DNA of 64,000 nt from Christensenellaceae bacterium Phil10. GTDB taxonomy: Bacteria; Bacillota; Clostridia; Christensenellales; CAG-917. The notes beneath the pieces were generated by a model that ran no database searches, was not told where the DNA came from, and saw only the letters and a list, made by a program, of their open reading frames with translations. The DNA is taken from NCBI GenBank assembly GCA_001940895.1, contig MSGY01000023.1:1-64000 (forward strand), given 5' to 3'. The position numbers were made by a program, and so were the translations under genes. Positions 26,633-38,821 of the stretch are shown here, piece by piece; the first letter of the stretch is position 1, and the number at the start of each line of letters is the position of its first letter.

Positions 26633-29600
26633 ATGCTGACTATAATACAAAATATCGAAAGGTTTAACAGACGCTATAACAGGCGAAGGGGGAGCGCAAT
26701 GCTAATGGTTCTGATGACTATGGCGATTATTATCGTCGTAGGCACTTCCATGCTGTTCGTCACACTGTCGTCTTTTTCGAACAGTATTGCAGACACGCAA
26801 CAAACCCGCGCCTATAACGCTGCCCTTACCGTATCGGGTAACGTTCAGCAGAGTATGGAAGAAATAATTCTGAACAAAGGCGATCTGATTACCCGTGAAG
26901 GCACGTATTTATACTTTACGTCAAACGAAAATTTCACCGGAGAGGAAGAAATCGTCGATTACACGATGGTAAACGGCGCGAAAGTTCAGGTTGTGCTTAC
27001 CAACGTAGGAGCGAGCGACGGAAAACTCGAGGACGTTCTCGTGGACGTTATAGCAACCTGCCGTCAGCAGACAAGCAAAGTAAGCTTTACCTACCATAAC
27101 GAAACCACAACGAGAAACGTAACGCTTGAAGATACGTTCGGCAACGCGTTCGTTATGAACAGCGATACTGGAGGAACGGAAAAGCGTAAAGACCTTGTAT
27201 TCAGAAGAATAGAGGGCGATATCTCCATTAACTGTTGGGACGAAATTCTTGACAGCGCAGGCAATCCCGTGCTCGATGAAGACGGTAATCCCAAAAAGAA
27301 AATGACAACCCGCGTTTACAATCCCATCGTGCTGGAAGGCTTGACGGGCAGTATTTACGCAAACGGCGACCTCATTATAGGGTCGGAGGATAACGTTATT
27401 AAAGTGCAGGGCAATATTTATTGCGACGGCAACCTGACTATCCGCGGTCTTGACCTCGGCGTAAACCTTCCCGCGCTTTATAAAAAAGAATATAAAAAGA
27501 AGTTTATCAAATACAGCACGATAGGCAACAAAACGTTTGCAGGTTTTGAAATTCTCGGCACAGGCGAATATAAGGAATATATCGGAGAAGGCAATGTAAA
27601 CGAGGCGATGTATCTCAAATACACCACCGAGGCTGGCGACGACGACTTCCTGCCTTTGCAGATTTACGACGAAGTGTCGCACTATACTTTGCTTGACCTC
27701 GGCATTACCAAATTCTATACGAAGGTTTATACTTCGGGCGGAAAGGCAATCAACAACGGCGAAGGCGAGGTGCTTAAAGGCGCGGACGGAAATCCTCTTG
27801 CAATAGAAATCGGAGAGGAACCTAACCCCAACTACTTCGGCGCCACGATGTACTATACCCCCGAATGCAAACCCGAGGAAATGATAATGCAATATCCGCA
27901 GGGCGGCAATATCTATTGCAGCGGCGATATCATCTTCGACAGGGTTAATTACGGCTACAACTGGGTATTTGACGCCAATGTCGGCGGTGGAAGTCAGTTA
28001 TATCAATATCACGACTTGTCCGTTTACGATAGCACGGGTAAAGGAAAAATCAGCCTTGACGGTTCGTATAGCGAAAATACGGCGGCAAAAAATAAAGTTT
28101 ATAACGCTACCGTCGGGTACAACAAATCCAAAATCAGAGGCGACATATTCTGCCTCGGCCGCATGATTATCGCACCAGAAAACCTTGCACTTACTTCCAA
28201 AGCAGACAAAAAATATCACGATGAAGCCATTGTATTCACCAAGATGAACGGTTCAAGCTACGACGGTTCGGTATTTGACGGCTATCTTGACGCAAATACG
28301 ATAAAAACTCAGGTTTACAGCGATGACGACACGTTCTTTGATCGTGTGAAACAGTTACTTGGGTTTAATGGAAAAAAATGGAATTATAATTTAAATAAAA
28401 CTTACAATTACGATTATACCGGCGGTTATAGATTATATAGTAATAATGGTAACATTGAAAACAGAGAGTATTATAAAAGTGCAAACGAATTTATAAACCA
28501 AAACCTAATGCCTTTTATTGAACAAATAACGAGTGTGAATGGTCAGACGTATGCCGATTTAAGAAATCTTTTTAATAGTATTATTAATAGCGAAAAAAAC
28601 GACAACGGAGGCAATTTATATAACAACGATTATATTTTAAACGGCGACGGATATTTAACGGGAATGGGCACGGGCGACGGCGAACACTACGTGCTTCGTC
28701 CCATAGAGTTCAGTAAAAACACAAACCTTTATATTTACAACTGGAATTACGACACCCTAATTAAAACGCAGGCGAACGTAAGCGAAGAGTTCCGCGTTAC
28801 CGAAATAACCCGTCAGCTTAACAATTCCTCGCTCGTGCAGGAATGTCGGACGGACGGCACGCTTAAAAATACTTCCACAAGCACGGTAAACGGCGTGCCC
28901 TATCAGGCAGCGGTAACGGTGAAATTTCAGACGCTTGACGTAAATAAAGTTTACGCAAACGGCAATATCGAGGCTGTGGGTGTGGACGCTTTCGGCTATG
29001 ACGTGAAGGCGGGGCTTAAAGCAAATGAAATAGACACAATTGGCGCGTTTGTTTCAAACGAATATCAGGAAATAAGCATCCTGGATATTATAATGAAAAT
29101 TAATAATTGCGACGAAGAAGAAGCTCTTGAAATAATAAAGGAAGATTATTGGAAGTTCGATGACGATGACGATTATTATAATGCGGTCAGTGATTTATCA
29201 ATAAGTGTAAAAGATCGAGAATACAAAGATCAAATAATTGATGTAAAGCATGACGGCATAATATTAAGCTATAAGGTTAATTATACTACCACGGTTGATT
29301 ATGAATGTACATATATAAAACCATGGAAGGTAGGAGAAGTAAAGAGATATGCAACATGGACAAAAAAAGCATCAATGCCTAATTATGGTTATCAAGAGGG
29401 CAGGAACGTTCATATATCCTTTAATTATGCAATAGAGTATTTTATGTATGATGGGGATTTTTATAACGGAGAAGGAAAAAAAGTTAAGGATAGTGAGATA
29501 AAAGAAAAGTTTGGATGGGATGATGCGACTGTCACCAGATTTAAAAATAACGTCGCAAAATTTAGCGACGGTTTGTTTTTAGATTTAAACAAATCTACAC

Positions 29601-31645
29601 TTGAAAACAAAATAAAAAAAGAAATTAAAGCATATGTATTACAAAATACAAGTACTTTCCCGATCAGTTTTCAAACAGAACATTCTTTAGCAATTTACCC
29701 TGATGTTGGGGATAAGAAAGAAAAAACAAATAGTGGTTCAGAGACATATAGAATGACCAAGACCACTACCGAATACGATACTGTAGAAACGTCGTTGAAA
29801 TATGACAGCGTTAAAGATACAATTATTTCGTTATTTAAGGATATCAAACAACTGGCGCTTGTGAGCAACAGTGCGGTGAACAGTTTTGACGGTATCGTTC
29901 AGGGAAACAATCTGTCCGTCGGCAATATGATTACGGGCGACAAGACTACCTCAGTGGGTGAAAATTCATTTAATGCCGGTGCGTTTTACGATAAAAATCA
30001 GAACGACGGCATTTATTACGGAATGTATCTGCGCGTCTCTAACCCGAGGTTTACAAACGTTAACAAGAATGCGTCCGTTCTTGACGTATTCCACGAAATT
30101 ATGAGCGCGGGCTTTGTCAAAATCGCGGTGCAGAAGACGGAATCGCTTACCGAAGCGTCTTTGCGCGAAAAAATCAACAAAGGCGAAGTATCGGTTACCG
30201 AATACGACTTGTTCGACGCAAGCGACAAAACGAACTTCGACCACCCGTTAAAAGAACTTAAACAGGACGATTGCATATTAAAAAAATTGGGTGAAGGCGT
30301 TAACGGTAATTATAGCTGGACGTCTATCGATACGCTTAATAGTTGGGCAAGCAGCGGCAATTCGAGGGGAGTAACTAACTTCTATACTGCCGATACGCTT
30401 GCATTTATAGACGGCACTTTAAGTACGTTGGGTTGGGTAAACGACGATATTCCTAACGTATGGACGTACGTAAGGTACAAAGCTACTATATTTAATTCTA
30501 ACGACCGCTTTTATGCAATTTTCCAGGGTGACGATAGCGATAAAAACGTGCGCGTGATGAGATTCAGGAATACGCAGAATAAAAACAATTCCTGGACTTG
30601 CGATAATACTTTCGGACTTGACCCGCTGTATTGCTCGTACGACAACGACGGCAATCCCGTTGGCGGCGATAAAGGCGGTGTATTTGTCAATCTTGACATC
30701 GGAGGAATTCGAACACAGGTCGACTATACGATATCCGATAATATTTATCTCAATTTCGGCGGCGAATTCGGCGGTTACGATACCGAACGTGAAAGTCCCG
30801 TCGTATTCGGCGCAAGCAAGGACAACGGCATAATCGCTTCGATAAACCAGCTCAATCATACGAAACGTATGAATATCACCATCGACGCGACCGAGCACGA
30901 CGTTTACGTTTATATCAACGCGCCGTCAAAGTACACTCAGGTCGAAGCCGGCAAGGGCGCTTACGTGAAAAACAGCGACGGAACGTACGCACTGGTTGGC
31001 GAAGGAAAGGGCGATTATTCGGTTGTTCCCGGTATCGAATTCAGAAAATGCAGCTGGCGTATCAAAGGCGAACATAACGCCTATATTATGCTTGTGGGCG
31101 ACACTTCGATAAACGCAAACGCATATAAATTGTCCGTCAATACGAGCGGCGGCATCAACAGCAGCGTTGCGGACCGCAGCGATACTATGCTGGGCACGCA
31201 CTTCTATTCGGGCAACTATACGACTTATTCGGGTTCGTATACGATTACGTCAGAGGGCAAATCAAGCCTTAAACTTGCGGCAAAGGAAATCAGCACCGTC
31301 GAAAGCGGCGATATGTATATCATCGGCACGATGGGCAACGAAATGACTTTGGGCCGCGGCGGCTATATCAACGGCTTCGTTTATCTTCCCAACGGCAGAT
31401 ACGTCAACAATTCGGTAGGCTTTTTGGGAATTCTGCCCAACGCATATTCGTCCAACAACCAGGCTACGATAGTGGCGCAGGACGTATCGATTAAAGGAAG
31501 TAACATCGGTAACCTCGTATTCCAGGCGTTCGACGTGGCGGCAAGCGCCGGCGGCACCGGGAAAGACGTCAATATCGACTTTATCGAAACGGGCGAAGTT
31601 ATCGTAATCAATAAATGGGAGTTCGGCGGATACTATTACGACTGA
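26633..31645 (+). CDS. giant PilX-like pilus-associated surface protein
   Basis: The 1670 residues start with a basic N-terminus and RRGSAMLMVLMTMAIIIVVG, a PilX/GspK-type prepilin helix with the Gly cleavage site but no Glu at +5. The next part has GSIYANGDLIIG and GNIYCDGNLTIRG, beta-helical repeats like bactofilin or polymer-forming proteins. Very long Asn/Tyr/Gly-rich external sequence follows, and near the end beta-helical stretches again (IIGTMGNEMTLGRGGYINGFVYLPNG). Two inner parts (about 28340-28640 and 29070-29830) are much more AT-rich than their surroundings. The ribosome site AGGGAGG precedes ATG 26633. It may be a tip adhesin or minor pilin built into the fibre; the exact role is inferred. 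Confidence 0.75.
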   Translation: MLTIIQNIERFNRRYNRRRGSAMLMVLMTMAIIIVVGTSMLFVTLSSFSNSIADTQQTRAYNAALTVSGNVQQSMEEIILNKGDLITREGTYLYFTSNENFTGEEEIVDYTMVNGAKVQVVLTNVGASDGKLEDVLVDVIATCRQQTSKVSFTYHNETTTRNVTLEDTFGNAFVMNSDTGGTEKRKDLVFRRIEGDISINCWDEILDSAGNPVLDEDGNPKKKMTTRVYNPIVLEGLTGSIYANGDLIIGSEDNVIKVQGNIYCDGNLTIRGLDLGVNLPALYKKEYKKKFIKYSTIGNKTFAGFEILGTGEYKEYIGEGNVNEAMYLKYTTEAGDDDFLPLQIYDEVSHYTLLDLGITKFYTKVYTSGGKAINNGEGEVLKGADGNPLAIEIGEEPNPNYFGATMYYTPECKPEEMIMQYPQGGNIYCSGDIIFDRVNYGYNWVFDANVGGGSQLYQYHDLSVYDSTGKGKISLDGSYSENTAAKNKVYNATVGYNKSKIRGDIFCLGRMIIAPENLALTSKADKKYHDEAIVFTKMNGSSYDGSVFDGYLDANTIKTQVYSDDDTFFDRVKQLLGFNGKKWNYNLNKTYNYDYTGGYRLYSNNGNIENREYYKSANEFINQNLMPFIEQITSVNGQTYADLRNLFNSIINSEKNDNGGNLYNNDYILNGDGYLTGMGTGDGEHYVLRPIEFSKNTNLYIYNWNYDTLIKTQANVSEEFRVTEITRQLNNSSLVQECRTDGTLKNTSTSTVNGVPYQAAVTVKFQTLDVNKVYANGNIEAVGVDAFGYDVKAGLKANEIDTIGAFVSNEYQEISILDIIMKINNCDEEEALEIIKEDYWKFDDDDDYYNAVSDLSISVKDREYKDQIIDVKHDGIILSYKVNYTTTVDYECTYIKPWKVGEVKRYATWTKKASMPNYGYQEGRNVHISFNYAIEYFMYDGDFYNGEGKKVKDSEIKEKFGWDDATVTRFKNNVAKFSDGLFLDLNKSTLENKIKKEIKAYVLQNTSTFPISFQTEHSLAIYPDVGDKKEKTNSGSETYRMTKTTTEYDTVETSLKYDSVKDTIISLFKDIKQLALVSNSAVNSFDGIVQGNNLSVGNMITGDKTTSVGENSFNAGAFYDKNQNDGIYYGMYLRVSNPRFTNVNKNASVLDVFHEIMSAGFVKIAVQKTESLTEASLREKINKGEVSVTEYDLFDASDKTNFDHPLKELKQDDCILKKLGEGVNGNYSWTSIDTLNSWASSGNSRGVTNFYTADTLAFIDGTLSTLGWVNDDIPNVWTYVRYKATIFNSNDRFYAIFQGDDSDKNVRVMRFRNTQNKNNSWTCDNTFGLDPLYCSYDNDGNPVGGDKGGVFVNLDIGGIRTQVDYTISDNIYLNFGGEFGGYDTERESPVVFGASKDNGIIASINQLNHTKRMNITIDATEHDVYVYINAPSKYTQVEAGKGAYVKNSDGTYALVGEGKGDYSVVPGIEFRKCSWRIKGEHNAYIMLVGDTSINANAYKLSVNTSGGINSSVADRSDTMLGTHFYSGNYTTYSGSYTITSEGKSSLKLAAKEISTVESGDMYIIGTMGNEMTLGRGGYINGFVYLPNGRYVNNSVGFLGILPNAYSSNNQATIVAQDVSIKGSNIGNLVFQAFDVAASAGGTGKDVNIDFIETGEVIVINKWEFGGYYYD

Positions 31646-31646
31646 T

Positions 31647-32132
31647 ATGAAAAAAGTTTTAAAAAAATTAAAACTCAATAAAAAGGGCTTTACCTTTGCC
31701 GAGTGCGTTGTCGCTATCGCATTGTTTGCGATAGTGGGTACGCTTGCGTTTACTATGTTCAACACCTCGGCAAAGTATATGCAGAAAGCGAAAAGAGAGG
31801 AAGCCAAACTCGCCGAATCGCAGGAGATGGCGTATAAAGAAAACTTTAAGAACGCCGAAGGCAAAACTATAATATACGGCAAAAACGTCCTGCATATCGA
31901 ATACGTCGTTACAGGCAATAATCAGACGGCTCCGTCTTATTTCGCACAATTCAGCTATACTACCTCGTACGGCGAAGTGTTGCATTCTTTTCCGATATCC
32001 CTTATAGAGGAAGACGTCCGCTACGGTGACGGAGGATATCCCTATCGTCGCTATCAGGTAACGTCCGACGTGGGCACTAAAAGAATAATCTGTATTTACA
32101 CCGAAAGGGAAACGAACGGGGTGCTTGAATAA
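31647..32132 (+). CDS. type IV pseudopilin (minor pilin)
   Basis: The 161-residue prepilin carries the processing motif KKGFTFAECVVAIALFAIVG: Gly, Phe at +1 and Glu at +5, then the hydrophobic assembly helix. The remainder is a small beta-rich head domain. It starts one base after the stop of the giant gene, with no ribosome site of its own, so it is translationally coupled. The PilV/GspI-like position suggests a tip complex with its neighbours. Confidence 0.85.
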   Translation: MKKVLKKLKLNKKGFTFAECVVAIALFAIVGTLAFTMFNTSAKYMQKAKREEAKLAESQEMAYKENFKNAEGKTIIYGKNVLHIEYVVTGNNQTAPSYFAQFSYTTSYGEVLHSFPISLIEEDVRYGDGGYPYRRYQVTSDVGTKRIICIYTERETNGVLE

Positions 32133-32137
32133 CTACA

Positions 32138-32932
32138 ATGCGGAAAAAAATCTTCGGAATAATTAAAAATAAAAAAGGTTTTACCTTTATTGAGGCGATT
32201 GCGGTTGTCGCTATTATGGGCGTCCTCGCTACGGTTATCGGCGGACTTGTTACCAGCGGCACGGCGGCGTATATGCGTCAGAAGGAAAGCGCCTCGGCAA
32301 AGGATATCGCGTCAATCGTCGAAAACGAAATTTCGAGAATTCTCACCCGTTCGAAAGAGGTTTTTCTGGAGGACGGCGAATTGCCCGCGGGAGTATATAC
32401 GCGGAGAGTTATCGACGAGTTCGGCGCGGAGATAGAGGAAACCTACAACGTATCGGGCGTTCCGTTTGACGGCGAGAGGAGTTACGTCGTGCATTCGGGT
32501 AACCTTACCGCTTTGGACGTCAACGCGTCGGGGAAAGGATACGTGTTGTACAAAACGCCGGCAGACGATTCCGTTTCGGAATATTTCGCAGCGGACGACA
32601 ATGAAAAACGCGCGTTTTACGGCAGTTTCAAAATAAATCTGTCGTTTGCGCCAGTATTTGACGCCGCCGATAAAACCATAGGCATAAAGATAATCTGCGA
32701 CGTTTACAATTCGAAAGACCAGTTGAAATACGAATCCCGCGGGACGGTAGTTTATCTGCTTGAATCGCAAAGCCCGTCTTTCAGCGGAAATATAGTCAAG
32801 ACGTATAAAAACGACATTTCGGCGCTTACCGATATCGTTCACGTGGACGGCAATTTTTACACCGCGACTTACGTCGATATAATCGGCGCGGACGCGGAAA
32901 AAGAATACACTCATTTGTATTTCAGATACTGA
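32138..32932 (+). CDS. type IV pseudopilin, PilW/GspJ-like
   Basis: The 264-residue prepilin has KNKKGFTFIEAIAVVAIMG with the Gly/Phe/Glu processing signature. The long head domain and its place after a small pseudopilin fit PilW/GspJ-type minor pilins. It follows the previous stop by 5 bases and is followed one base later by the prepilin peptidase gene. Confidence 0.85.
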   Translation: MRKKIFGIIKNKKGFTFIEAIAVVAIMGVLATVIGGLVTSGTAAYMRQKESASAKDIASIVENEISRILTRSKEVFLEDGELPAGVYTRRVIDEFGAEIEETYNVSGVPFDGERSYVVHSGNLTALDVNASGKGYVLYKTPADDSVSEYFAADDNEKRAFYGSFKINLSFAPVFDAADKTIGIKIICDVYNSKDQLKYESRGTVVYLLESQSPSFSGNIVKTYKNDISALTDIVHVDGNFYTATYVDIIGADAEKEYTHLYFRY

Positions 32933-32933
32933 T

Positions 32934-33701
32934 ATGGAACTCGGGCATTTGTTATTTACGGTCTTTTCGGCCTTTTTCGGTCTTGCCGTGGGCAGTTTTC
33001 TGAACGTATGTATTTACCGCATACCGAAGGGGATGTTTTTCAAAGAAAAACACAGTTACTGTCCGAAATGCGGCGCGACCCTTAAATGGTACGATATGAT
33101 ACCCGTGTTCAGCTGGATATTTTTAAAAGGCCGTTGCCGCAACTGTCACGAGAAGATAAGCGCGCGATATCCCGTCGTCGAAGCGCTTAACGCCGTGTTA
33201 TGGACGTTATCGGCGTACTTTTTCGGGCTTACGGCAAACGCGTTCGTTTACGACGTGCTGTTTTCGGCGCTTATCGTAATGACGTTTATCGATATCGATA
33301 CGAAGGAAATTCCAAACGGGATTGTCCTTCTGATAATAATACTTTCAATCCCGCTGTTTTTCACCGCACGCGACGTCATCTGGTGGCAGAGACTTGCGGG
33401 TGCGGCGGTTATCAGCGTGCCGCTTTATCTTATCGCGCTCGTATCGGGCGGGGGAATAGGCGGCGGCGATATCAAGTTGTTTTTTGCGCTCGGGCTGGTG
33501 CTGGGGCTGTATAAGACGCTTATATGCGCTTTTATCGCGATAGTATCGGCGGGGCTTATCGGCGGCGTATTGCTGATAAGCAAGAAAGTCAAAAAGGGAT
33601 TCGAGTTGCCGCTCGGGCCCTTTATAGCGCTTGGCGGAGTGCTTACGGTTTTCCTTGGGGATATGACCGTAAACGCCTTGCGCGCTTTATTCGGATTATA
33701 G
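32934..33701 (+). CDS. pilD: prepilin peptidase (A24 family, PilD/GspO)
   Basis: This 255-residue membrane aspartic peptidase cleaves the leader of prepilins and methylates the new N-terminus. The N-terminal domain has a zinc site with two CxxC pairs (YCPKCGA and GRCRNCHEK). The catalytic Asp residues are in IDIDTKEIPNG and in GGGIGGGDIKLFFALG. Eight hydrophobic helices cover the remainder. It is the only such enzyme in the window and would serve all eight prepilins here. Confidence 0.95.
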   Translation: MELGHLLFTVFSAFFGLAVGSFLNVCIYRIPKGMFFKEKHSYCPKCGATLKWYDMIPVFSWIFLKGRCRNCHEKISARYPVVEALNAVLWTLSAYFFGLTANAFVYDVLFSALIVMTFIDIDTKEIPNGIVLLIIILSIPLFFTARDVIWWQRLAGAAVISVPLYLIALVSGGGIGGGDIKLFFALGLVLGLYKTLICAFIAIVSAGLIGGVLLISKKVKKGFELPLGPFIALGGVLTVFLGDMTVNALRALFGL

Positions 33702-33731: not shown

Positions 33732-35420
33732 ATGCAAAGAGGTTCAAGTTTAGGCGATATTCTTCTGGAGAAAGGCTACGTCAATAAAGCCCAACTGGAA
33801 GACGCCAAGCGTTGGCAGAAAACGCACCCTAACGAAAAAATAAGCGCGATATTGCTGTCAAGGGGAATTATTACCGAGGAGTGCATGCTTTCCGCAATGG
33901 CGGAGCGTTTCAACACTTCGTATCTCAATACCGAACTTGTGGTACGTCGTCCCGAAATTTTGAAAAACGTGCCCGAACAGATTGTTAAAAAGCATTGTAT
34001 AATGCCGATTGACATAAAAGCCGGGCAGATAATTATCGCCACGCATGACCCGCACGACATAGGTGCGTTCGAGGACGTGAAAATGGTGTCGCGAATGGAC
34101 GTCGGATTTGTTCTTGCGCCAAAGCGGATTATCGAATCGGCGATAGACAAGTACTATACCAACGCGGGTAATTTCTTCGTGTCGGACGAGGCTACGCAAA
34201 AGGTAGTGCAAACCACTTCGGCGGCAACGCAACAGAAATTAAGCGAAATCGAAAGCCGTGTTGACAACACGCCCGTCGTAAAACTTATAAACAGCCTTAT
34301 CACGCAGGCGTATATGCGCCGAGCGTCGGATATTCATATCGAGCCTTTTGAGGAACAGATTCTCGTGCGTATGCGTATCGACGGCGAGTTGGTCGAATGT
34401 ATGCGTCTCGACATATCCACGCTGAACAGCATAGTGTCGCGTTGTAAAATTCTTGCGGGCATTAACATTGCCGAAAAGCGTATCCCGCAGGACGGCCGTA
34501 TCGACTTCGATAACGGCGATATCAGCATCGACCTTCGTGTAAATACTTTGCCCACCATTTACGGCGAAAAGGTCAATATGCGTCTTCTCGCAACCGAGGA
34601 CGCCGCGCTTATCACGCTGCCCGACCTCGGCATGCCAGAGCATTTGTTCAAACAGTTCTCGCGCATAATAAAGGCGCCAAACGGCATAATTCTGGTTACG
34701 GGCCCTACCGGAAGCGGTAAATCCACCACGCTTTACGCCGTATTGAGCGAACTTAACAAGCCAAACGTAAATATAACCACCGTCGAGGACCCTGTCGAAA
34801 AGCAGATATTCGGCGTAAATCAGGTGCAGACAAACGCAAAGGCGGGCCTTACTTTCGCAAGCGGTCTTCGCGCTATATTGCGTCAGGACCCCGATATCGT
34901 TATGATAGGTGAGATTCGCGATACCGAAACCGCCGAAATCGCAATCCGCGCCGCTATCACGGGCCACTTGGTTTTGTCCACACTGCACACCAACGACGCC
35001 GCGTCAAGCATAATCCGTCTTATCGATATGGGCGTTGCGTCATATATGGTTGCCTCGTCGGTAAACTGCGTTGTCGCGCAAAGGCTTGTGAAAAAACTCT
35101 GTCCCGAGTGCAAACGCCGTCGTGAAATCCGTCCCGAGGAAGCGGCTCTTTTGCATGACGATTCGATAACGCACCTTTACGAGCCTGTCGGCTGTCCCCG
35201 TTGCGGAAATACGGGCTTTAAGGGCCGTACCGCAATATACGAGATTATCGAAATCGACAACGACCTTCGCCGTATGATATCCGAGGGCAAAAATACCGAG
35301 GAAATCCGCGAGTTTGCAAAGGAACACGGCGCAACCTTCCTCGAGGACAGCATTAAAAGCCTTATTAAGGACGGCGCCACCTCTATATCCGAGTTTTACA
35401 GGCTCATTTACAGCATATGA
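33732..35420 (+). CDS. pilB: type IV pilus assembly ATPase PilB (GspE family)
   Basis: This 562-residue hexameric ATPase drives pilus extension. The N-terminal domain (GDILLEKGYVNKAQLEDA) is of the GspE_N type. Walker A is GPTGSGKSTT and Walker B is in IVMIGEIRDTETA, with Asp box DIHIEPFE and His box LVLSTLHTNDA. A zinc site is formed by CPECKRRR and CPRCGNTGFKGR. It follows GGAGGCAAA and ends 1 base before a terminator. No retraction ATPase PilT is encoded in this window. Confidence 0.95.
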   Translation: MQRGSSLGDILLEKGYVNKAQLEDAKRWQKTHPNEKISAILLSRGIITEECMLSAMAERFNTSYLNTELVVRRPEILKNVPEQIVKKHCIMPIDIKAGQIIIATHDPHDIGAFEDVKMVSRMDVGFVLAPKRIIESAIDKYYTNAGNFFVSDEATQKVVQTTSAATQQKLSEIESRVDNTPVVKLINSLITQAYMRRASDIHIEPFEEQILVRMRIDGELVECMRLDISTLNSIVSRCKILAGINIAEKRIPQDGRIDFDNGDISIDLRVNTLPTIYGEKVNMRLLATEDAALITLPDLGMPEHLFKQFSRIIKAPNGIILVTGPTGSGKSTTLYAVLSELNKPNVNITTVEDPVEKQIFGVNQVQTNAKAGLTFASGLRAILRQDPDIVMIGEIRDTETAEIAIRAAITGHLVLSTLHTNDAASSIIRLIDMGVASYMVASSVNCVVAQRLVKKLCPECKRRREIRPEEAALLHDDSITHLYEPVGCPRCGNTGFKGRTAIYEIIEIDNDLRRMISEGKNTEEIREFAKEHGATFLEDSIKSLIKDGATSISEFYRLIYSI

Positions 35421-35556: not shown

Positions 35557-35585
35557 TTGACGGTGGTGGGTTTATAAAGTATAAT
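35557..35585 (+). promoter_or_regulatory. promoter of the expressed pilin gene
   Basis: TTGACG (35557-35562), a 17-bp spacer, TATAAT (35580-35585). Transcription from about 35592 gives a 110-base leader with short stems: CGACAAA/TTTGTCG, and CGCAAAAT-AAGG-ATTTTGCG at 35641-35660. No matching promoter is seen upstream of the inverted copy at 37150. Confidence 0.75.
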
Positions 35586-35641
35586 TAGTATTGTCAGAGG
35601 GGACGTGAGTTTTTCCCCGCCACGACAAAACGAAATTTGTC

Positions 35642-35773
35642 GCAAAATAAGGATTTTGCGTGAAATTTAAAATGAAATAATAAAGTGGAGGATTAACACA
35701 ATATGTTAAAACTTAGAAAAAACAAAAAAGGCTTTACTCTTGTCGAGTTAATAGTCGTTATCGCCATTATGGC
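35642..35773 (+). repeat. left arm of the pilin inverted repeat
   Basis: About 132 bp, near-identical to the reverse complement of 37080-37212. The identity runs unbroken for 77 bp (35673-35749), and differences elsewhere are a few bases. It covers half of the leader, the ribosome site GTGGAGG, the start codon and 23 codons of pilin. Beyond 35773 the two genes diverge sharply at the DNA level although the next protein residues stay similar. Confidence 0.85.
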
Positions 35774-36128
35774 TGTTCTCGCAGGTACCATTGCCGGTGT
35801 AACGGTATCTCAGTTGAATAAACAGACCAATAATAGCGCTCAATCAGAAGTAAATACCTTGATGAACGATTTTAAAACATTCGTATTAGATTATGATGGA
35901 GAGATCAATAATGCGACTACCTTAACCGCTGCTGTTGCAGCTTTTGCTGAAGAAGCAAAGGGAACGCAAGGCGCCGAGGTATTATTTGCAACTGGTTCGT
36001 TTAAAGCAGGTGATCATAAATTCATATACACCATTGTTGATTTAAAAGTAACATTTTCTTGTAACAAAAAAGGAAGTGGCGGTGGAACAATTTCTGCTGA
36101 ATATACTTACACTGATATTCTTGCATAA
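35703..36128 (+). CDS. type IV pilin, expressed copy of the switchable pair
   Basis: The 141-residue prepilin has MLKLRKNKKGFTLVELIVV and the assembly helix to about residue 35, then SQLNKQTNNSAQSEVNTLMND. Its variable head ends CNKKGSGGGTISAEYTYTDILA. The Gly/Phe/Glu processing site is perfect. It has its own promoter and structured leader and the ribosome site GTGGAGG 9 bases before ATG. The first 23 codons belong to the inverted repeat shared with 36701-37150. It is probably the major pilin of the present orientation. Confidence 0.85.
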   Translation: MLKLRKNKKGFTLVELIVVIAIMAVLAGTIAGVTVSQLNKQTNNSAQSEVNTLMNDFKTFVLDYDGEINNATTLTAAVAAFAEEAKGTQGAEVLFATGSFKAGDHKFIYTIVDLKVTFSCNKKGSGGGTISAEYTYTDILA

Positions 36129-36143
36129 TAATTATTAATGTAA

Positions 36144-36168
36144 GCGGGGCAAATTGCCCCGCTTTTTT
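36144..36168 (+). terminator. terminator after the expressed pilin gene
   Basis: GCGGGGC/GCCCCGC around AAATT, followed by six T residues. The next ATG lies only 4 bases after the T run. Confidence 0.88.
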
Positions 36169-36171
36169 AGT

Positions 36172-36639
36172 ATGATAAAGTATAATAAAAAAGGTTTTAC
36201 TCTTGTGGAGCTTATAGTTGTAATAGCTATAATAGCGGTTTTATCAGGTACGGTTGCAGGCGTAACGGTTTCGCAATTATTAAAGCAAACCGATAATAAC
36301 TATTATAATAATCAAGCTCCGTTACTTGCAAAGTCGCTTCAAGTCGCTATTCTTTCTATAAATCCACCTGATATTTATGATAGTGATGATGAGCAAACAA
36401 GAAAATTTGTTGCTTCAAAAATACAGTCTTATTTACAATCGGAAATCGTTGGAGCAACAGATATAAATTGGGAAACTGTTAGCACAATTCCTGCAAAAGC
36501 ACATTTTAGTGTTTTTGTCAATCAAACAGGGGACACAATTTATATTGCTTATACTGGAAAACAAGCAAGTTTCGGCACAAAATATTATATAATAGATAAA
36601 GAAGGCAATTATAGTAAAATCGATACAATGATTTTATAA
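36172..36639 (+). CDS. type IV pilin without ribosome site, possible silent or attenuated copy
   Basis: The 155-residue prepilin begins MIKYNKKGFTLVELIVVIAI, then SQLLKQTDNNYYNNQAPLLA and an AT-rich head domain. The protein is intact. Its ATG follows directly on the terminator of the previous gene, with no Shine-Dalgarno and no promoter in the 40 bases before it, so expression would need read-through or rearrangement. Its 5' end lacks the conserved leader of the inverted pair. It lies inside the segment bounded by the two arms and would flip with it. Confidence 0.7.
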   Translation: MIKYNKKGFTLVELIVVIAIIAVLSGTVAGVTVSQLLKQTDNNYYNNQAPLLAKSLQVAILSINPPDIYDSDDEQTRKFVASKIQSYLQSEIVGATDINWETVSTIPAKAHFSVFVNQTGDTIYIAYTGKQASFGTKYYIIDKEGNYSKIDTMIL

Positions 36640-36655
36640 TTATATTTTGATAACT

Positions 36656-36686
36656 AAAAAAGCGAGGCAATTACCTCGCTTTTTTT
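36656..36686. terminator. bidirectional terminator between convergent pilin genes
   Basis: AAAAAAGCGAGG pairs with CCTCGCTTTTTT around CAATTA, with A and T runs on both sides. Confidence 0.88.
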
Positions 36687-36700
36687 GTTTTTGATTAAAA

Positions 36701-37150
36701 TTATGCTTTTGCAATAGGCGTTCCAGGTTGTACACCATTCTCAGATGTTACAGTATAGGTAACGCTTCCTTTTGTATCAGACTGTTTTCCAACATAAGTA
36801 ACGGTATATGTTTTGCCATCTTTGTCTACAGTGATTCCAACTGCGCCTCCGGAGGTACCTTGTGCACCCCACGTAATAGCAGTGCCGTATGCTTCTTCTA
36901 AGGCTTCCTGCATGGATGCTCCAGTAGCGAGGTCTGCTTTATTTGCGACAATATCTGGATTTTGTACTAATTCTTCGTAAATCGTATCGGCAACCTTTTT
37001 GGCTTGCGTTTTGTTGGCATTATCGGTTTGTTTATTCAACTGAGATACAGTAACGCCCGCGACAGTACCTGCAAGCACTGCCATAATGGCGATAACGACT
37101 ATCAACTCGACAAGAGTAAAGCCTTTTTTGTTTTTTCTAAGTTTTAACAT
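36701..37150 (-). CDS. type IV pilin, inverted and apparently promoterless copy
   Basis: The 149-residue prepilin has the same first residues as the pilin at 35703 (MLKLRKNKKGFTLVELIVV) and the helix to SQLNKQTDNANK. Its head domain is different (ADTIYEELVQNPDIV, YVGKQSDTKGSVTYTVTSENG). The ribosome site GTGGAGG and the leader are identical to the left copy. I could not find a -35/-10 pair upstream on the minus strand. It is either silent until inversion or driven by a promoter that I cannot see. Confidence 0.82.
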   Translation of the reverse strand: MLKLRKNKKGFTLVELIVVIAIMAVLAGTVAGVTVSQLNKQTDNANKTQAKKVADTIYEELVQNPDIVANKADLATGASMQEALEEAYGTAITWGAQGTSGGAVGITVDKDGKTYTVTYVGKQSDTKGSVTYTVTSENGVQPGTPIAKA

Positions 37151-37212
37151 ATTGTGTTAATCCTCCACTTTATTATTTCAATATTAAATTTCACGCAAAA
37201 TCCTTATTTTGC
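37080..37212 (-). repeat. right arm of the pilin inverted repeat
   Basis: Mate of 35642-35773. It contains the leader from GCAAAATAAGGATTTTGC, the ribosome site, the start and 23 codons of the minus-strand pilin. One 1-base length difference near TTTAATATTG and a G for A at the codon after GTCGAGTT are the main differences from the left arm. Confidence 0.85.
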
Positions 37213-37215
37213 ACA

Positions 37216-37399
37216 GAGTTTCAAAGAAACTACTGCGCAAAATAATCAAATGCGTTTTACGCAAAGTTTTTCAAACTATGACGTAAAACGCTTAACCCCC
37301 TTATTTATTTTTAAGAGTTTCAAAGAAACTACCGCGCAAAATAATACACGGCGTTTCACACAAAGTTTTTGAACAATTTCAAACTATTGCGGAAAACGC
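37216..37399. repeat. two imperfect direct repeats next to the right arm
   Basis: Unit 1 (37216-37291) and unit 2 (37315-37399) both read GAGTTTCAAAGAAACTAC, then GCGCAAAATAAT, GCGTTT, AAAGTTTTT, TTTCAAACTAT-type sequence and AAAACGC. Each starts with a GTTTC-AAA-GAAAC stem and can form a longer stem (GCGTTTTACG/CGTAAAACGC in unit 1). They lie where the promoter of the right pilin copy should be. The function is unknown; the remainder of 37400-37562 shows no gene. Confidence 0.6.
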
Positions 37400-37597: not shown

Positions 37598-38122
37598 ATG
37601 AAAAACAAAAAGGGTTTTACTCTTGTCGAGTTAATAGTCGTTATCGCCATCATGGCTATTCTTGCAGGCACCGTTGCGGGCGCGACTGTGGGCATAATGA
37701 ACAAAAAAACCGACGAAGTAAATTATATTTATAACGGCCGTCAGATTGCCGTGCAGATTGCCGAGTGGGCGCGCGAAGTTTACGATAATCCGGCATACTT
37801 TTTCGAGCTTACGGGCGCAACGCCCAAGTTCGATTTATCTTCAATTTCGGGCGCTACCGCCGACGACGTTACGTCGCTTTGGGACGATTCCTATGCAGAC
37901 GCCGCTTACGTTACGCTGAAAAACAGATTTTCAACGCTTAACTGGAAAGATACTTACGGCACGCCCGATAAAAAAGGGCAGTTCTCGGCCGATTTCAACG
38001 ACGGTGCGGTTTTTCTGTATTACAAGGGAAAATCGCGCGATTACGCTCAGGCGTATTATAAAATATATATGTCGGATTCGGGCAGTATCGCAACCGATAA
38101 AGGCAACGGTTTTCCGTCTTAA
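37598..38122 (+). CDS. type IV pilin-like protein
   Basis: The 174-residue prepilin starts MKNKKGFTLVELIVVIAIMA, then AGATVGIMNKKTDEVNYIYN and a longer head domain with less AT-rich codons than the three pilins before it. About 35 bp of its 5' end (TTTACTCTTGTCGAGTTAAT and beyond) are identical to the left arm at 35734-35768, in direct orientation. I chose ATG 37598 as the first start at the processing motif; it has no ribosome site and is placed for leaderless translation. Confidence 0.82.
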   Translation: MKNKKGFTLVELIVVIAIMAILAGTVAGATVGIMNKKTDEVNYIYNGRQIAVQIAEWAREVYDNPAYFFELTGATPKFDLSSISGATADDVTSLWDDSYADAAYVTLKNRFSTLNWKDTYGTPDKKGQFSADFNDGAVFLYYKGKSRDYAQAYYKIYMSDSGSIATDKGNGFPS

Positions 38123-38191: not shown

Positions 38192-38821
38192 ATGAAAAAA
38201 CCTATCCTCAGAAATAAAAAAGGTTTTACGCTGATTGAGCTTATTGCAACCGTGGCAATTATGGCTATCCTTGCCGGCGCCGTTACGCCTGCGGTTTATT
38301 ACTCCACGCAAAGACGGCAGAAAAGCGCGGCCGAATACGATACGCAGACTATGTACCGCAATTCCGTTGCGGCAATCACCTATCTTGCCGGACAGAATAT
38401 TACGCCCGAAAAACCCGTACCGCGCGGAGAGGCGGAACCTACCAATAAAAACTGGTATATTACTTTTTCGATGCAGGTGGCAAAAAGGCTTTACGACACC
38501 GTAATCGCGCTGGATATCCCCGTTAAATACTTCGACGGCGACAGCCTTAAGGTGCCTAAAAAAGCCGACGGAACCGATTATACGGCGTCCGAACGAAGCA
38601 CTTTCGTTACCGCGGGCAATAAAAATCCGTATATCGTCGTTCAGGTAATGAGGGACAGCAGCGACGATATGAATTACAACAATTACCTGATTATCAGTTA
38701 TCACAACGACAAAAATCAGTTTCAGGCCAAGAACTGGGCGGAGCTCGGCACGCAGTTCAACGCTTATACGACCAACGCTAACAACCCCATAGTTTATACC
38801 TATAAAATCCGCAAAGCCTGA
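38192..38821 (+). CDS. type IV pilin-like protein
   Basis: The 209-residue prepilin has KNKKGFTLIELIATVAIMAILAG with correct Gly/Phe/Glu processing residues, then TPAVYYSTQRRQKSAAEYDTQ. A mixed head domain follows with QVMRDSSDDMNYNNYLIISYH. It has its own promoter and ribosome site, unlike the leaderless pilin upstream. It is followed 4 bases later by an unrelated small membrane protein gene, which is probably co-transcribed. Confidence 0.85.
   Translation: MKKPILRNKKGFTLIELIATVAIMAILAGAVTPAVYYSTQRRQKSAAEYDTQTMYRNSVAAITYLAGQNITPEKPVPRGEAEPTNKNWYITFSMQVAKRLYDTVIALDIPVKYFDGDSLKVPKKADGTDYTASERSTFVTAGNKNPYIVVQVMRDSSDDMNYNNYLIISYHNDKNQFQAKNWAELGTQFNAYTTNANNPIVYTYKIRKA

Follow-up and report, generated by a model that had tools for sequence, protein, structure and literature searches.

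How could a gut bacterium that keeps two type IV pilin genes facing each other, only one of them with a recognisable promoter, come to make either pilus subunit? The question is raised by the window, i.e., the whole stretch of 64,000 nucleotides analysed here (positions 1 to 64,000 of contig MSGY01000023.1 of Christensenellaceae bacterium Phil10, assembly GCA_001940895.1), which lies within a 134.9-kb contig of a 1.0-Mb metagenome genome (25 contigs, 55% complete). Two convergent pilin genes of the window, termed here pilin A and pilin C, begin with the same DNA in inverted orientation. Judged from their anatomy, there is an even chance that A and C constitute a reversible inversion switch, driven by homologous recombination or by an unseen recombinase. 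The parts in question are the following.

35557-35585, plus strand: sigma-A type promoter of pilin A (TTGACG-17-TATAAT, 11/12), outside the left arm
35642-35834, plus strand: left arm of the inverted repeat, with a palindrome, the leader, the ribosome-binding site (RBS) and the first 44 codons of pilin A
35703-36128, plus strand: pilin A, 141 amino acids (aa), with the prepilin N-methyl motif (PF07963, TIGR02532)
36172-36639, plus strand: pilin B, 155 aa, within the putative invertible segment
36701-37150, minus strand: pilin C, 149 aa, an intact open reading frame (ORF) with an RBS and no recognisable promoter
37019-37212, minus strand: right arm of the inverted repeat

The full alignable arms (35642-35834 against 37019-37212) extend over 193 bp, are about 91% identical and form the longest inverted match of the window; they span 61 bp of non-coding leader, the RBS and codons 1-44, and their alignment contains a single 1-bp gap, which falls in the leader, so that the coding part is gap-free. 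Identity is perfect over four runs: 35642-35670/37184-37212 (29 bp), 35673-35749/37104-37180 (77 bp), 35751-35773/37080-37102 (23 bp) and 35805-35824/37029-37048 (20 bp). It is impossible that the 77-bp exact match arose by chance. A previous inspection of the DNA, the sequence-only reading, had described a 132-bp inverted repeat of convergent pilins, covering the leader, ribosome site and first 23 codons around a 77-bp perfect core; this repeat was recovered exactly (35642-35773), the perfect runs agree with its content, and the alignable arm extends further. The sharp fall of identity beyond it, claimed at the same time, was found as well: A and C differ at one silent site in codons 1-23, nearly every codon differs silently from 24 to about 35, and past codon 44 the bodies are unrelated and do not align. 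Since silent divergence jumps after codon 23, the recombination edge near this codon is real.

The promoter of pilin A was located exactly where it had been predicted; it scores 14.4 bits, a value matched by 0/200 shuffles. The best site upstream of C reaches 7.4 bits and is equalled by 61-76% of shuffles, i.e., it is no better than shuffled DNA, as the claim that the right copy has no clear promoter implied, and by the same matrix pilins D and E, which follow downstream, score 10.8 and 15.6, so A, D and E all stand above C. Because only one promoter is recognisable, a flip of the DNA between A and C would swap the pilus that is made. The anatomy fits a switch, in that the single promoter lies outside the arms, the homologous starts are inverted and the two alternative bodies are intact. 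When flips were simulated with crossovers at five positions of the arms, every flip placed the C body behind the A promoter, in a protein of 149 aa, and left the A body at the opposite end, in one of 141 aa, both complete and in frame. The mechanics of inversion would therefore allow a change of the expressed pilin, and the earlier expectation that the flipped segment would join promoter and constant start to the other body in frame was confirmed by simulation.

In the favoured model A and C would be alternative type IV pilins of one expression site. A crossover anywhere in the arms would flip about 1.2-1.5 kb, place the C body behind the promoter and shift A to the silent end together with B, which would still follow it. 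The flip would probably proceed either by ordinary homologous recombination over the near-perfect core of about 100 bp or through a trans-acting, site-specific recombinase whose target would be the palindrome found at the outer edge of each arm, and its outcome would be a pilus subunit that switches reversibly. The elements at these edges are listed below.

35642-35659, plus strand: outermost part of the left arm, the palindrome GCAAAATAAGGATTTTGC, a candidate site or mRNA hairpin
37195-37212, minus strand: outermost part of the right arm, the palindrome again
37199-37399, minus strand: hairpin-rich array between divergent C and D, just outside the right arm; its two 60-bp units lie 99 bp apart and are 87% alike

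The palindrome occurs twice in the window against 0.08 copies expected, and a search of the recovered genome found neither a third copy of it nor a further copy of the hairpin array. On the C side, the 5′-leader strand at the array folds with −30.9 kcal/mol (z −4.9); a search of Rfam for a riboswitch or leader family returned sub-threshold chance matches only.

Which enzyme could act there? Recombinase searches cover the recovered genome, 45% of the whole being unseen. Tyrosine recombinases (PF00589) gave no match on C23, the contig of the window, and Piv/IS110 (PF01548) gave none in the recovered 55% of the genome, where the controls were detected. The sequence-only reading, which saw no Piv, tyrosine or serine recombinase, thus holds for the 135-kb contig. 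Serine recombinases on C3 and C18 were set aside, as they lie on small contigs away from the locus, and so was the tyrosine recombinase of C15, a remnant of about 109 aa. The target of XerS, difSL, was also compared with the arm edges: in the stretch 35636-35665 the left palindrome fits the arms of difSL at 18/23, tied best in the window, and the right copy at 15. This comparison is post hoc and was made with a general difSL pattern in place of the organism's own dif site; it was not used as evidence.

A survey of PilB loci provided the closest parallel, namely a locus of Ruminococcus sp. SIG550 (L082:13886-16206), with two divergent pilins and an inverted repeat (228 bp, 98%) whose copies lie on either side of one promoter and a tyrosine recombinase of 334 aa. 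Orthologues of this recombinase (54-59%) are present in seven more species of the genus (8/38 genomes searched), and at the same threshold none was found in 297 other genomes sampled from the family. In five of the seven orthologue loci both flanking pilins, with their inverted starts, are retained; in L167 (extended as L182) the site is present on either side and the second pilin is cut by the contig end, and L171 lies at a contig end. Taken together, seven Ruminococcus species have pilins with shared inverted 5′ ends that enclose a tyrosine recombinase and one promoter, and six of the seven have both pilins on the contig (the switch loci are L082, L167-L170, L172, L173 and L179-L184). These loci comprise two to four pilins with identical leader, RBS and N-terminal starts both ways and one strong promoter, and the two pilins of the main divergent pair are separated by the recombinase, of 320-360 aa. 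Ahead of its start, every pilin has the site (T)ATTATTATAAGGAGGTTTTCGC or a variant proper to the species. Four pilins of L182 and three of L183 bear the site, while the promoter TTGACAAAA...TGCTATACT stands directly upstream of only one in each, and one pair of L183 is convergent, promoterless against promoter, in the geometry of A and C. In L082 and L179, PilT marks the outside of the locus, and in each the promoter points to the pilin more distant from PilT, i.e., no alternative orientations were seen. By their layout the Ruminococcus loci are a candidate for an anatomically clear, conserved inversion switch, and they are probably more interesting than the window; a published case of inverting pilins, in Ruminococcus or in Clostridia related to it, was not found in a search reaching few subscription papers.

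Both these pilins and the A/C pair are Bacillota type IV pilins that have inverted leader, RBS and N-terminal codons in common, diverge in their bodies and possess one promoter for several pilins. The Ruminococcus loci differ in that their main pair is divergent and a dedicated recombinase stands between the pilins; hence their inner segment carries promoter and recombinase, whereas that of the window carries pilins and no recombinase. Put against the features of the Ruminococcus switch, A and C show the inverted leader, RBS and N-terminus with one promoter, but not the orthologous recombinase between the pilins.

Is the sharing of a leader, as distinct from coding DNA, peculiar to inverted pairs? 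Among the loci fetched, a leader in common (score of at least 25) was found in 8/17 opposite-strand and in 1/105 same-strand neighbouring pilin pairs, the sole same-strand pair lying within a Ruminococcus switch locus. The A/C leader scores highest (54, against at most 28 for the others). The opposite-strand pairs are partly ascertained, most of them having been fetched through the recombinase and being orthologous. Relatives of Phil10 were surveyed too. Among 200 genomes of the order, neighbouring-pilin clusters outside the window are co-directional in 12/12 cases; the comparison of orientation among related genomes, which had been proposed as a check, thus yielded no opposite-strand pilin neighbours in these 12 clusters. 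The A/C leader occurs nowhere else in 43 genomes of the family, in which the core DNA matches N-terminal coding sequence only, and an exact 50-base probe of the core was absent from viral contigs. As the clusters are co-directional and the leader is absent from the family genomes, the inverted arrangement was derived in this lineage.

Several observations weigh against inversion. One assembled orientation is known, from a single genome of its genus; the 135-kb contig carries no recombinase, and a single intact tyrosine recombinase was found in the genome, a XerS-like one (L118) that resides on another contig. The leader test is not an independent statistic, because the Ruminococcus cases are one orthologous family, found mostly via the recombinase; no more than two of its cases, the window and Ruminococcus, count as independent. 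Finally, pilin D, a direct paralogue of A, has the same coding core, and for this inversion is not the explanation needed, but duplication or gene conversion. The near-identical N-terminal DNA core lies at 35721-35773 in A, 37080-37132 in C and 37604-37656 in D; D stands in direct orientation to A with a different leader, and the two share 11 consecutive identical codons, while pilin B differs from the core at most silent sites. The likeness of the three cores appears to be a sign of gene conversion among A, C and D, and since the core of D is in direct orientation, sequence exchange other than inversion has happened here. Gene conversion, which the sequence-only reading gave as its alternative, is therefore still serious and is ranked below inversion. 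It enters the main rival account, less likely than not, by which the locus is a static inverted duplication: C would have arisen as an inverted copy of the start of A, pilins A, C and D would trade short N-terminal tracts, nothing would switch, and C would be silent or weak. The tract in D speaks for it, as do silent sites of A and C that are saturated right past the core and coding starts that same-strand pilin neighbours elsewhere also have in common. Yet duplication or conversion alone explains neither why leader likeness is restricted to the inverted pair, in keeping with leader sharing being nearly confined to opposite-strand pairs in the examined loci, nor why the promoterless C is intact.

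Would two independently expressed pilins, with a leader kept for translation or mRNA stability and a promoter of unrecognised type for C upstream or in the hairpin array, account for the same DNA? The leader does hold a palindrome, there is the strong fold on the C side, and weak promoter-like sites are present at 37604-37577 and 37553-37526; but the best upstream site of C is at shuffle level where A, D and E do better by the same matrix, and other co-expressed pilin neighbours have no shared leaders, which makes this explanation unlikely. Most improbable is an assembly artefact, a chimeric join of repeats in the metagenome assembly: the genome is a draft and 77-bp repeats can mislead short-read assemblers, but the A and C bodies differ and each is found once in the genome, and the contig, on which all seven N-methyl matches of the genome sit, continues for 135 kb through the locus. 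The invertible cassette that was originally proposed gains partial support from the anatomy, the Ruminococcus layout and leader sharing in opposite-strand pairs, and a recombinase linked on the contig is what it lacks.

The wider locus is a type IV pilus cluster in the order of two minor pilins, prepilin peptidase, PilB and pilins A-E. The account given from sequence alone was right about the repeat and omitted pilin B, the coding core of D, the terminators and the hairpin array. The remaining features of the cluster are as follows.

start at 31647 and at 32138: two minor pilins
start at 32934: PilD-type prepilin peptidase
33732-35420, plus strand: PilB assembly ATPase (TIGR02538, 582 bits), directly upstream of pilin A
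36142-36164, plus strand: strong intrinsic terminator 3′ of pilin A
36656-36685, no strand assigned: terminator-like hairpin between convergent B and C, with its T-run on the plus strand
37598-38122, plus strand: pilin D, direct paralogue of A, with the same coding core and a different leader
38192-38821, plus strand: pilin E, with its own strong promoter

Pilins A, B, C, D and E all score above the cut-off for PF07963 and TIGR02532 and show the characters of type IV prepilins (class III signal, GF(T/S)xxE motif and hydrophobic N-terminus). The start of pilin B, 8 bases past the terminator stem of A, lacks a Shine-Dalgarno sequence; expression of B may be poor or absent. Encoded immediately upstream of the minor pilins is a 1670-aa protein (26633-31645), which has no Pfam match and carries an N-terminal hydrophobic segment like that of PilX-type minor pilins; it may be a very large pilus-tip protein. 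The nearest relative found is Candidatus Faecicola pullistercoris, of the same family, with a PilB that is 73% identical.

Pilin inversion is a textbook case in Moraxella, where the recombinase Piv (IS110-family DEDD) serves the genes tfpQ/tfpI, and the sap system of Campylobacter fetus has several S-layer homologues with the promoter carried on the invertible part. The C-terminal end of pilA in Moraxella bovis is flipped by inverted repeats that lie within the gene and downstream of it, and both phases are seen in low-passage cultures (PMC9585708). As proposed for A/C, a fixed promoter, convergent alternative bodies and inverted repeats at the pilin start allow inversion to swap the expressed body (PMC9585708). 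The silent copy of Moraxella, however, has no pilin start, whereas C is a full ORF; because both A and C carry their own RBS, start codon and N-terminus, the analogy is loose. Shufflons and the S-layer inversion of Campylobacter fetus have been described together (PMC11852207): sap resembles the proposed A/C switch in its complete genes with common 5′ ends, swapped by inversion at one promoter, and in the R64 shufflon (Rci, pilV) inversion likewise selects alternative pilin ends of a type IV pilus (PMC11852207). R64 differs by its short sfx sites, C-terminal segments only and adjacent rci, where A/C has two long arms only. The resemblance to Moraxella and shufflons once suggested for the window would hold for the swap by inversion and fails elsewhere, as there is no Piv match in the recovered genome, no rci-type gene on the contig and no set of short sfx sites, and C is complete. 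In Neisseria, whose silent pilS copies have no promoter and RBS, one pilin is expressed and exchanges sequence with other copies in a RecA-dependent manner (PMC4534519), a likeness to A/C, but this exchange is non-reciprocal and without inversion, and C keeps its RBS and start. The window stands apart from all four systems by a complete gene with its own RBS and start at each end and no linked recombinase. If A/C flips, it works like the known inversion systems, and it lacks the defining features of the Moraxella and shufflon families.

What would such a switch mean? Somewhat short of even confidence, it can be proposed that pilin inversion is recurrent in Bacillota type IV pili, with several cassettes and a recombinase of its own in Ruminococcus, and here either without a recombinase (homologous) or with one acting in trans, whole genes with shared leader and N-terminus flipping behind one fixed promoter. 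No report of inversion for type IV pili of gut Clostridia was found in the literature searched. The authors of PhaseFinderDC state that high-homology regions escape detection (PMC11892184), and if the reading of A/C as a switch is true, inversion switches with long homologous arms would be under-counted. The Ruminococcus loci, with the recombinase in place, offer an immediately testable system. If inversion does occur at A/C, uncultured gut bacteria would alternate their pilus subunit, by which adhesion, phage sensitivity and immune recognition would be affected.
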